NCBI RefSeq assembly: GCF_014203735.1
Contig: NZ_JACHJQ010000011.1
Span: 62,001-126,000 of the forward strand
DNA from: Actinophytocola algeriensis
GTDB lineage: Bacteria > Actinomycetota > Actinomycetes > Mycobacteriales > Pseudonocardiaceae
Reading direction: 5' to 3'
DNA length: 64,000 bases
Below the pieces are notes generated by a model. It ran no database searches. It had not been told where the DNA came from and saw only the letters and a program-made list of their open reading frames with translations. A program made the translations under genes and the position numbers. Shown here piece by piece: positions 16,996 through 59,353 of this stretch (within the stretch, counting starts at the first letter, position 1; each line of letters starts with the position of its first letter).

Positions 16996-17013
16996 TTGTG
17001 CCTGCGTTCACAA
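16996..17013. promoter_or_regulatory. Rex operator (ROP) upstream of rex
   Basis: TTGTGCCTGCGTTCACAA fits the Rex consensus TGTGAACnnnTTCACA at all but two or three positions, with a perfect right half. It lies about 50 bp before the rex start and probably overlaps the promoter (TACCGT at 17018-17023). Autoregulation of rex-hemACD through such a site is established in Streptomyces. Confidence 0.7.
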
Positions 17014-55932: not shown

Positions 55933-56625
55933 ATGTCACGTGCCGGACTGGACAAGAACCCCCGCGACGTGGCCGAGATGTTCGACGGCGTGGCCAAGGG
56001 CTACGACCGGACCAACTCGGTGATGACGATGGGTTTCGACCGTCGTTGGCGCTGGCTGACCAGGAAGGTGCTGGAGGCGAGCCCCGGGGAGCGCATCCTC
56101 GACCTGGCGGCGGGCACCGCGGTGTCGACGAGCGAGTACGCGAAGTCCGGCGCGTGGTGCGTCGCCGCGGACTTCTCGCTGGGCATGCTCAGCAGCGGCA
56201 GGCACCGCGACGTCCCGAAGGTCGCGGCCGACGCGTTCCACCTGCCGTTCGCCGACGACTCCTTCGACGCGGTCACGGTGTCCTTCGGGCTGCGCAACAT
56301 GGACGACACGGTCGCCGCGCTGCGTGAGATGTGCCGCGTCGTGCGCCCCGGCGGACGGCTCGTGATCTGTGAGGTGTCACAACCGCCGTTCCGCCCGATC
56401 CGGTGGCTGCACTACAACGTGGTGCTGCGCCTGCTGCCGCGCATCACGCGGCCGTTCTCGTCGAACAAGGACGCGTACTCGTACCTGGCCGAGTCCATGC
56501 GCGACTGGCACGACCAGCGCGCGCTGGCGCTGCTGATCGCGGAGGCCGGCTGGGACGAGGTGGAGTGGCTGAACCTGACGTTCGGGGTGGTGGCGCTGCA
56601 CCGGGCGGTCAAGCCACAGCGTTGA
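55933..56625 (+). CDS. menG: Demethylmenaquinone methyltransferase
   Basis: SAM-dependent C-methylation of demethylmenaquinone to menaquinone. 230 residues. [40 protein letters not shown] (SAM motif I), [20 protein letters not shown] and [17 protein letters not shown] are UbiE/MenG signatures. Corresponds to Rv0558. Leaderless start. Confidence 0.93.
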
Positions 56626-56657: not shown

Positions 56658-57329
56658 TCAGCGCGGCATCGACTGCCAGTGGGTGATCTGGCGGATCACC
56701 TGGCTCAGCAGCGTCGCCGACACCAGCAGGAGCAGTGTGCTGACCGTGCCGTACAGGGCGGCCGCCCGCAGGACCTCGGCCGTCACCTCGCCGCGGGTCT
56801 CGACGCGCAGCGCCAGCACCACGAGCACGTTCGCCAGCAGCGAGTACCACCACGCGCCCACCAGCGGGCTCGTCCCCAGGTCGTCCACCCGGTAGGTGTC
56901 CTCGGGCACCCCCGGTCTGCTCGTGCGCCACACGTCGTCCACGATCTGGCGGGGGAACCACAGGTTCACGACCGGCACGAACCAGGCGCCGACCGTCCAG
57001 CCGCGTGACCAGCGGTGCTCGGCCCGGCAGAGGCGTTCCGCGTTCACCCGGGCCCGCCACAGCCACGTCAGGAACACCGTCGCCGCCGCGCCAAGCGCGA
57101 GGACCGTCAGCCACACCGTGCCCATCGCCAGGTTGTCCGCGCTCACCAGGTCCGCGACCCCGACGTCCGGCTCACCGGCCACGTAGTCCGCCGCGACCTG
57201 GTAGCGGTGCCAGTCGGTCCACGTGGCGAAGAGGTTCGCCGCGCAGTTCGTGAACACCATCGTCGTCGCCACCGTCGCGATCGGACGTACCGGGAGCAGC
57301 GCCAGGTCCCGTGCGTCCTGACTCGTCAA
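56658..57329 (-). CDS. DUF4328-like membrane protein
   Basis: 223 residues, about five helices. RWSRGWTVGAWFVPVVNLWF then PRQIVDDVWR is the DUF4328 signature; the region ends ATLLSQVIRQITHWQ. Starts with TTG at 57329 by length; the RBS is poor, so the start is uncertain. Convergent with menG and divergent from menJ. Function unknown. Confidence 0.75.
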   Translation of the reverse strand: MTSQDARDLALLPVRPIATVATTMVFTNCAANLFATWTDWHRYQVAADYVAGEPDVGVADLVSADNLAMGTVWLTVLALGAAATVFLTWLWRARVNAERLCRAEHRWSRGWTVGAWFVPVVNLWFPRQIVDDVWRTSRPGVPEDTYRVDDLGTSPLVGAWWYSLLANVLVVLALRVETRGEVTAEVLRAAALYGTVSTLLLLVSATLLSQVIRQITHWQSMPR

Positions 57330-57433
57330 ATCGGCCCCCAGGTGTGCGTTGCGACACTCTGAAATCGTTCGTCGACAGGTGTCTGTTTCGGCACACCGCG
57401 GGGATTGTTCTCCCCGGGATAAAATGCACTCAG

Positions 57434-57453
57434 TTCGTGAACGTTTTCACAAG
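57434..57453. promoter_or_regulatory. Rex operator (ROP) upstream of menJ
   Basis: TTCGTGAACGTTTTCACAAG; the central CGTGAACGTTTTCACA differs from the Rex consensus TGTGAACnnnTTCACA only in the first base. It lies 14 bp before the menJ ATG, overlapping or just downstream of the likely promoter (TAAAAT at 57419-57424), a position suited to repression. Confidence 0.7.
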
Positions 57454-57467
57454 CGCGAGGAGCCGTC

Positions 57468-58763
57468 ATGGGAACGCCCAGCCGACGCAAGCCGGCCGAG
57501 GACGCCGAGGTAATCGTGGTCGGCGCCGGTCCGGCCGGCTCGACAGCGGCGACCTACCTGGCCCGCGCCGGGCTTGACGTGCTGCTGCTCGAGAAGAGCA
57601 CCTTCCCCCGCGAGAAGGTCTGCGGCGACGGACTCACCCCCCGCGGTGTGAAACAGCTCATCGACCTCGGCATCGACACCCGCGAGCAGGCCGGCTGGCT
57701 GCACAACAAGGGCCTGCGGGTCGTCGGCGGCGGGGTCACGCTCGAACTGGACTGGCCCGACCTCGCGACGTTCCCGCCCTACGGCGTGGTCCGCCCGCGC
57801 CAGGACTTCGACGAGATGCTCGCCCGCACCGCCCAGCGCGCGGGTGCCCGCCTGCTGGAGCAGACCAACGTCACCGGCGCCGTCACCGACGAGCGCGACG
57901 GCCGGGTCGTCGGCGTCACCGCCAAGGTCGGGCCGGAGCGCTCACCCGTCACCTACCGCGCACCGCTCGTCCTCGCCTGTGACGGCGTGTCCGCGCGGCT
58001 CGCGCTGTCGGTCGGCATCGAGAAGCTCGAGAGCCGCCCGATGGGGGTGGCCGTCCGCCGTTACTACGCGTCGCCGCGCAGCAAGGACGACTTCCTCGAG
58101 TCGCACCTGGAGCTGTGGGACAGGTCCAACCCGGACGACCCGCGCCTGCTGCCCGGCTACGGCTGGATCTTCGGCATGGGCGACGGCACCGTGAATGTCG
58201 GCCTCGGGATCCTGTCCACCTCGAAGGCGTTCGGCAAGACCGACTACCGCCAGCTCATGCGGTCCTGGCTCGACGGCACCCCGGAGGAGTGGGGTTTCCG
58301 CGAGCACAACGCGCTCGGCAAGATCGGCGGCGCCGCGCTGCCGATGGGCTTCAACCGCACCCCGCACTACTCGCCCGGCATGCTGCTCGTCGGCGACGCG
58401 GGCGGCATGGTGAACCCGTTCAACGGCGAGGGCATCGGCTACGCGATGGAGTCCGCGAAGATCGCCGCGGAGGTCGTCGTGCAGGCGCTCGCGCGGGCGG
58501 AGGGGCCCGCGCGGGAGAAGGCGCTGTACGGGTACCCGGTCGCGATGAAGCAGGCACTCGGCAGCTACTACCGGCTGGGGAACATCTTCTCCAGGCTCAT
58601 CGGCAACCCGCTCGTGATGCGTACCGCCACCAAGTACGGGCTGCCGCGCCAGACGCTCATGAAGCTCGTGCTGAAGCTCCTCGCCGGCCTGTACGACCCG
58701 AAGGACGGCGACGCGTTCGACCGCATGATCACCGCGGCCACCCGGATGGCGCCGAGCGCGTGA
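57468..58763 (+). CDS. menJ: Geranylgeranyl reductase family flavoprotein (menaquinone reductase MenJ type)
   Basis: 431 residues. FAD motif VIVVGAGPAGSTAATYLARAG, FPREKVCGDGLTPRGV and LLVGDAGGMVNPFNGEGIGY define the geranylgeranyl reductase family. The M. tuberculosis homologue Rv0561c (MenJ) saturates one isoprene unit of menaquinone; a position near menG favours this role, though other polyprenyl substrates are possible. GAGGAG RBS before ATG 57468. A Rex site lies just upstream. The stop overlaps the next start (GTGA). Confidence 0.87.
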   Translation: MGTPSRRKPAEDAEVIVVGAGPAGSTAATYLARAGLDVLLLEKSTFPREKVCGDGLTPRGVKQLIDLGIDTREQAGWLHNKGLRVVGGGVTLELDWPDLATFPPYGVVRPRQDFDEMLARTAQRAGARLLEQTNVTGAVTDERDGRVVGVTAKVGPERSPVTYRAPLVLACDGVSARLALSVGIEKLESRPMGVAVRRYYASPRSKDDFLESHLELWDRSNPDDPRLLPGYGWIFGMGDGTVNVGLGILSTSKAFGKTDYRQLMRSWLDGTPEEWGFREHNALGKIGGAALPMGFNRTPHYSPGMLLVGDAGGMVNPFNGEGIGYAMESAKIAAEVVVQALARAEGPAREKALYGYPVAMKQALGSYYRLGNIFSRLIGNPLVMRTATKYGLPRQTLMKLVLKLLAGLYDPKDGDAFDRMITAATRMAPSA

Positions 58764-59353
58764 GGACGCTCTGCCTGGCCCGGCACGGGGAGGCGTCGGG
58801 TGCGCTGACCCCTGCCGGTCGCGAGCAGGCGCGGCTGCTCGGGCAGCGGCTCGCCGGCAAGCGGGTGGACGGCGTGTTCCACAGCCCCGTGCAGCGGGCG
58901 GCGGAGACGGCGGCGCTGGTGTCGGCCGCGCTGCCGGACGTGCCGGTGACGGTGTCGCCGCTCGTCGGTGACTACCTGCCCTACGCGCCGACCGCTGCCG
59001 AGCTGGCGCCCGAGTTCGCGCCGGTCGCGCTGGCGCACGTGGCGGACTTCACGACGCTGCAGCACGAGACCGGCCCCGGGCTGGCGGAACGCGCGCTGGC
59101 GGAGTTCACCGCGCCGGTGCCGCGGGTGGATCTGTTGATCACGCACAGCCAGATCGTGACGTGGTTCGTGCGGGCCGCGCTGGGCGCGCCCGCCGCGCGG
59201 TGGCTGGGCGTCAACGCGGCCAACGCGGCGCTGACGGTGATCCAGTACCGGCAGGGCTGGCCGCCGAACCTGGTGGTGTTCAACGACCAGTCACACCTGC
59301 CGGATTCCTTGCGGTGGACGGGTTTCCCGGCGGAGCGCACCGCTGCGTGGTGA
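58760..59353 (+). CDS. Histidine phosphatase family protein
   Basis: 197 residues. TLCLARHGEASGALTPAGRE contains the catalytic RHG; FHSPVQRAAETAALVSAAL and LLITHSQIVTWFVRAALG give the second histidine. Typical for SixA/phosphoglycerate-mutase-like proteins; substrate unknown. GTG overlaps the menJ stop, implying co-expression under the same Rex-controlled promoter. Confidence 0.82.
   Translation: MRTLCLARHGEASGALTPAGREQARLLGQRLAGKRVDGVFHSPVQRAAETAALVSAALPDVPVTVSPLVGDYLPYAPTAAELAPEFAPVALAHVADFTTLQHETGPGLAERALAEFTAPVPRVDLLITHSQIVTWFVRAALGAPAARWLGVNAANAALTVIQYRQGWPPNLVVFNDQSHLPDSLRWTGFPAERTAAW

Follow-up and report, generated by a model that had tools for sequence, protein, structure and literature searches.

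A Candidate Rex Operator Upstream of a menJ-Like Gene in Actinophytocola algeriensis and Its Occurrence in Related Actinomycetes

The menJ-Like Gene and Its Surroundings

The window, that is, the whole stretch of 64,000 nucleotides of Actinophytocola algeriensis DNA that was analyzed, spans C11:62001-126000 of the genome and contains the following genes and features.

16996..17013, plus strand: operator upstream of rex, TTGTGCCTGCGTTCACAA, two mismatches to TTGTGAANNNNTTCACAA
17143..17913, plus strand: rex, presumed repressor (NF003992, 371.3 bits, cut-off 226)
55933..56625, plus strand: menG, demethylmenaquinone methyltransferase (NF001241, 345 bits, cut-off 327), upstream of menJ
56658..57329, minus strand: DUF4328 gene, divergent from menJ, start about 105 bp from the candidate site
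57420..57425, plus strand: -10-like hexamer TAAAAT, 9 nt 5' of the candidate operator
57435..57452, plus strand: Rex operator candidate TCGTGAACGTTTTCACAA, one mismatch to TTGTGAANNNNTTCACAA
57457..57462, plus strand: GAGGAG, likely the menJ ribosome binding site, as judged from the sequence
57468..58763, plus strand: MenJ-like flavoprotein of the geranylgeranyl reductase family, 431 aa (profiles TIGR02032 and NF045655)
58760..59353, plus strand: histidine phosphatase superfamily gene (PF00300), overlapping the menJ stop codon

The 431-residue protein scores 246.8 bits with TIGR02032, above the cut-off of 158.8, and thus belongs to the geranylgeranyl reductase family. Its score with NF045655, the MenJ profile, is 252.8 bits and lies below the curated cut-off of 700, so that MenJ-like is the safe name. 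An earlier, sequence-only reading of the locus had called the protein MenJ; this holds for the family but not at the level of the MenJ equivalog. MenJ of Mycobacterium tuberculosis, which we take as the system for comparison, shares the flavoprotein superfamily with the window protein but differs in that the latter stays below the equivalog cut-off. The MenJ-like enzyme presumably reduces the menaquinone tail. For brevity its gene is referred to as menJ below. The same reading had coupled the phosphatase gene to menJ. In the window the GTG start codon at 58760 does overlap the menJ stop codon (58761-58763), but the phosphatase gene adjoins menJ in only three of six genus members.

The product of rex passes the equivalog cut-off, which means that a cognate Rex is encoded in the same genome as the menJ site, and it could be aligned with Rex chains of solved structure over residues 15-213. 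The reading frames after rex are presumably hemA, hemC, and hemD.

The Candidate Operator and Its Position

The tight Rex consensus TTGTGAANNNNTTCACAA was taken from Streptomyces avermitilis (PMC5355995). The only mismatch of the menJ site to it is at position 2, and the site conforms to the palindrome TTGTGAA-N4-TTCACAA when up to two mismatches are allowed. In the sequence-only reading the site was given as 57434-57453, which is the same 18-mer with one base added on each side. It had been described as deviating at one defined position and as placed just before the start codon, and both descriptions are borne out, since the site ends 15 bases 5' of the ATG at 57468. The statement that it is a better match than the operator of rex depends on the pattern used: it is true with TTGTGAANNNNTTCACAA, where menJ has one mismatch and rex two, but not with the looser pattern TTGTGNNNNNNTTCACAA, where rex has none and menJ one.

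A strict sigma-70 scan at menJ returned no promoter, and the case for a menJ promoter therefore rests on conservation. Among the 144 site-bearing menJ loci described below, 143 have a TAnnnT (mostly TAGACT or TACACT) no more than 30 nt 5' of the site, with a gap of 1-17 nt, against one and three of 144 in control stretches. Located 15 bp before the start codon and beside this conserved element, the menJ site appears to lie within the promoter region.

Rarity of the Site in the Genome

At two mismatches or fewer, the tight consensus is found at seven places in the 9,733,683 bases of the genome, while a reversed control pattern gives one. The menJ site is one of only four places in the 9.73 Mb with at most one mismatch. 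With TTGTGNNNNNNTTCACAA and up to three mismatches the window contains 11 matches compared with a mean of 10.4 after shuffling, which is no excess, and because the looser patterns were at chance level they were replaced by the tight consensus. Two of the seven sites precede nuoA, on contig C9, and the others are found at a wblE-like gene, menJ, rex, a carbonic anhydrase gene, and within a reading frame (L259). The wblE-like site (L256) is located 66 bp before a WhiB-type gene that lies beside a gene with a diacylglycerol-kinase domain; from motif and layout we take this gene to be wblE-like. In S. avermitilis nuoA, wblE, and rex are all Rex targets (PMC5355995).

Conservation in the Genus and Family

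The menJ site is present in every one of the six genomes sampled from the genus. In each of them nuoA is found elsewhere, preceded by two sites with at most two mismatches. In the family Pseudonocardiaceae a MenJ-like match with E <= 1e-120 was obtained in 117 of 120 genomes and a Rex match in all 120. The family sample comprises 118 loci, namely the best place in each of the 117 genomes together with G003; G015 has another copy, 50% identical, that was left out. A site with three mismatches or fewer is present within 320 bp upstream of menJ in 65 of these loci, and the other 53 have at least five mismatches. One genus, g45, is split, with the site present in two of its four genomes (L007 and L009 against L010 and L013).

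Four layouts recur in the family. Two of them are site-menJ-nuoA and site-menJ-nuoA with one or two further sites between the genes. In another, menJ follows closely behind menG without a site, and two sites then precede nuoA; most Amycolatopsis, Prauserella, and Saccharomonospora loci are of this type. In the remaining one, that of the window's genus, the site precedes menJ and nuoA is not found within 1.5 kb. For 38 siteless menJ loci where menG ends within 120 bp, the 300 bp upstream of menG were searched as well; none contained a site with three mismatches or fewer, the best match having five.

Conservation across the Class

The class sample was built from 158 genomes, of which 99, the window's own included, matched at E <= 1e-100. 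With the window's genome set aside, 98 loci outside the family were taken from 97 of the remaining 98 genomes, and 97 loci were kept, as L246 has no upstream sequence. Left out were a partial match in G203 and the additional, weaker copies in G146, G155, and G272. Outside the family 79 of the 97 loci carry a site with at most two mismatches, and the other 18 have five to eight. Of the 25 other families, several of which are represented by one locus each, 20 are positive at all sampled loci. In the rest the site is found in two of four loci (f30), in none of the 13 from Streptomycetaceae (f18), and not in the single loci of f8, f21, and f5. Of the 79 site-bearing loci, 78 have nuoA no more than 1.5 kb past menJ, and the usual unit outside the family is site-menJ-nuoA.

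The two samples together amount to 215 loci, and the site stands upstream of menJ in 144 of them, 65 among the 118 from the family and 79 among the 97 from the rest of the class. No locus has exactly four mismatches. The 71 siteless loci include 53 of the 118 from the family and all 13 from Streptomycetaceae. The sequence-only reading was to be given up if the palindrome were absent in close relatives; it was found in six of six genus members and in these 144 loci of the class. When 200 permuted palindromes matched in make-up were searched for, the best matched three of the 215 loci and the mean was 0.05, compared with 141 for the true motif at the same threshold. In a control stretch taken from inside menJ the motif was found in none of the 215 loci, and spacers of 0-3 or 5-8 instead of four bases gave no loci at all.

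Three of the menJ-bearing genomes in the class sample lack a Rex match. The site is missing in two of these (G126 and G139) and present in the third (G179), which is a draft of 380 contigs. Rex is found in many siteless genomes, and the link between Rex and menJ is thus not universal. On a tree of 97 proteins, with 39 of its 94 inner branches left open, no fewer than 14 changes are required to explain the presence of the site; shuffled labels required 25 on average, and none of 500 shuffles was as low. More distant homologues, 34-42% identical, are found in the family f2, presumably Mycobacteriaceae, and in G138, and they come from both Rex-bearing and Rex-lacking genomes. Across the whole of the sequence fetched for their 17 loci, no site with up to three mismatches was found, but this absence says little, given the doubtful orthology at this identity and the mixed presence of Rex.

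A scan of named relatives was confined to the best 80 among at least 567 loci and overlaps with the family and class samples. The site is present in 33 of these 80. Carriers are found in Saccharopolyspora, Saccharothrix, Kibdelosporangium, Actinoalloteichus, Streptoalloteichus, Actinopolyspora, Actinomycetospora, Frankia, Dactylosporangium, and Actinopolymorpha, while the 47 without a site include Lentzea, Kutzneria buriramensis, and Actinokineospora fastidiosa. Within the same best 80 of at least 567, none of the 24 loci from Streptomyces, Streptacidiphilus, Kitasatospora, and Wenjunlia has the menJ site. Thirteen of the 24, those where nuoA was fetched 0.7-2.6 kb after menJ, have a two-mismatch site between menJ and nuoA. 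In six of the 13 it reads TTGTGACCTGCTTCACAT, which is the sequence footprinted at S. avermitilis nuoA1 (PMC5355995).

Which Factor Recognizes the Site

The 18-mer at 57435-57452 very probably serves as an operator for the window's own Rex, as proposed earlier. Both the conservation of individual columns, which fits Rex better than a CRP-type protein, and the strong sites at nuoA, the wblE-like gene, and rex argue for this assignment. GTGAA-N4-TTCAC is exact in 134 of the 144 menJ sites, and A7 and A18 never vary. At position 2, C is found in 77 sites, A in 34, and T in 33, so that 111 are off the consensus, whereas 122 of the 132 nuoA-side sites from the family have T there. This departure perhaps makes the menJ site a weaker operator. 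Rex of S. avermitilis reportedly binds sites with one or two mismatches more tightly than those with three, and the hppA site, TCGTGAATCAATTCACGA, is bound by Rex (PMC5355995).

The nearest competitor is a protein of the CRP/FNR family, in which case menJ would answer to a signal other than NADH; we consider this unlikely. The consensus of that family is TGTGA-N6-TCACA, with the same spacing, so that GTGA-N6-TCAC is compatible with both motifs. It is also relevant that cydAB of Mycobacterium smegmatis is under CRP control (PMC7739888). However, the perfect CRP motif is found in only 18 of the 144 menJ sites, too few for them to be classed as CRP sites, and the window site has CGTGA, one mismatch to the CRP core. 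Furthermore, the invariant A7 and A18 lie outside this core, while the variable position 2 lies inside it. The menJ and nuoA-side sites also have the motif in common, and several of the Streptomyces nuoA sites are identical to the S. avermitilis sequence footprinted with Rex (PMC5355995).

Alternatively, the repeat might not be an operator but fold into a short hairpin within the leader of the menJ transcript, which would agree with its place downstream of the -10-like hexamer and just 5' of the ribosome binding site. A hairpin would allow paired changes in its arms, though, and here the arms are nearly constant and the four loop bases free, which suits a protein that reads bases; the hairpin is accordingly highly improbable. 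It could also be asked whether the site serves the divergent DUF4328 gene rather than menJ, as that gene starts close by. The -10-like hexamer is oriented toward menJ, and the site still accompanies menJ in relatives that have menG, transcribed in the same direction, as the upstream gene, which leaves this reading very little room.

Proposed Regulation of menJ and Its Relation to Known Systems

The Rex protein of actinomycetes was first studied in Streptomyces. Rex operators have been described in S. avermitilis for nuoA1-N1, rex-hemAC1DB, cydA1B1CD, atp, wblE, hppA, and ndh2, and NADH weakens the binding (PMC5355995). The palindrome and its spacing are the same as at menJ, and at cydA1 Rex protects -3 to +25 relative to the start, much like the geometry expected at menJ. 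The systems differ in that Rex binding was measured in S. avermitilis, while the menJ site is predicted, and in that menJ is missing from the 21 rows of Table 1 of that paper (PMC5355995).

Since it starts 9 nt past the -10-like hexamer, the operator would probably cover the transcription start of menJ or the first transcribed bases. When NAD+ dominates, Rex would be bound and initiation or early elongation blocked. A rise in NADH would release Rex, and the MenJ-like reductase would then be made, in this species probably together with the coupled phosphatase. Binding, repression, and the NADH response at menJ are all predicted here from the site and from Rex elsewhere.

The gene order ubiE-ggr-nuo of Actinomyces oris is the same as that seen here in other actinomycetes, with ggr next to nuo, and transposon insertions in ggr, nuoA, nuoJ, and nuoG fall in one phenotype class (PMC5478893). 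The study differs from the present one in that no regulator is discussed, and the words "rex" and "repressor" are absent from its main text (PMC5478893). Saccharopolyspora spinosa, of the same family as A. algeriensis, has the menJ site TAGTGAACTCGTTCACAA and nuoA 163 bp after menJ (L286). Expression of cytA and cytB has been reported for a rex mutant of this species, and the words "nuo," "menaquinone," and "geranylgeranyl" are absent from the text of that paper (PMC4172946).

The shared site points to a joint adjustment of a quinone enzyme and of respiratory complex I to redox state in these bacteria. From the wide spread of the site we infer, with somewhat better than even confidence, that a Rex-controlled menJ-nuo unit is ancestral to the class, setting the menaquinone tail along with complex I by the NADH/NAD+ ratio, and that Streptomyces lost the menJ half, while the window's genus kept the coupling after menJ and nuo were separated. 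In Streptomyces proteomics, the combination of high complex I and low menaquinone in S. coelicolor has been discussed as an imbalance (PMC8981147). It may be speculated that joint control of menJ and nuo is how other actinomycetes avoid it.

If Rex does control menJ, the Rex regulon, known for respiratory enzymes, would gain an enzyme with a probable role in modifying the electron carrier as such, and a target common to many relatives can escape notice when the regulon is delineated in Streptomyces. The operator is ordinary in kind. As far as searched, what is new is the target, its spread, its survival after menJ left nuo, and its absence from the sampled streptomycetes. No link between menJ and Rex was found among the literature matches listed, and Ravcheev et al. 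(2012; J Bacteriol 194:1145) and Brekasis and Paget (2003) may already list a Rex-regulated menJ-nuo operon.

Other Rex-Like Sites

The operator upstream of rex has at most two mismatches in all 30 loci looked at, and in 29 of them it is within 400 bp. In all 30 (L112-L141) position 6 is C instead of A (TTGTGC...), which points to autoregulation through a constantly imperfect half-site.

The sites before nuoA occur in tandem in family loci where nuoA follows menJ (for example L014, L016, and L055), while the menJ site is single. The distance from start to start is mostly 32 bp, about three helical turns, and 20 or 33 bp in some genera; the arrangement suggests cooperative binding at nuoA. A second nuoA-type gene is present in two genus members (L148 in G002:C1 and L149 in G005:C67), and the stretches fetched for these two contain no Rex site with up to two mismatches. 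In the window's own genome, a Rex-like site with two mismatches (L260, G000:C9:381029-381046) is located about 67 bp before the carbonic anhydrase gene (Pro_CA).
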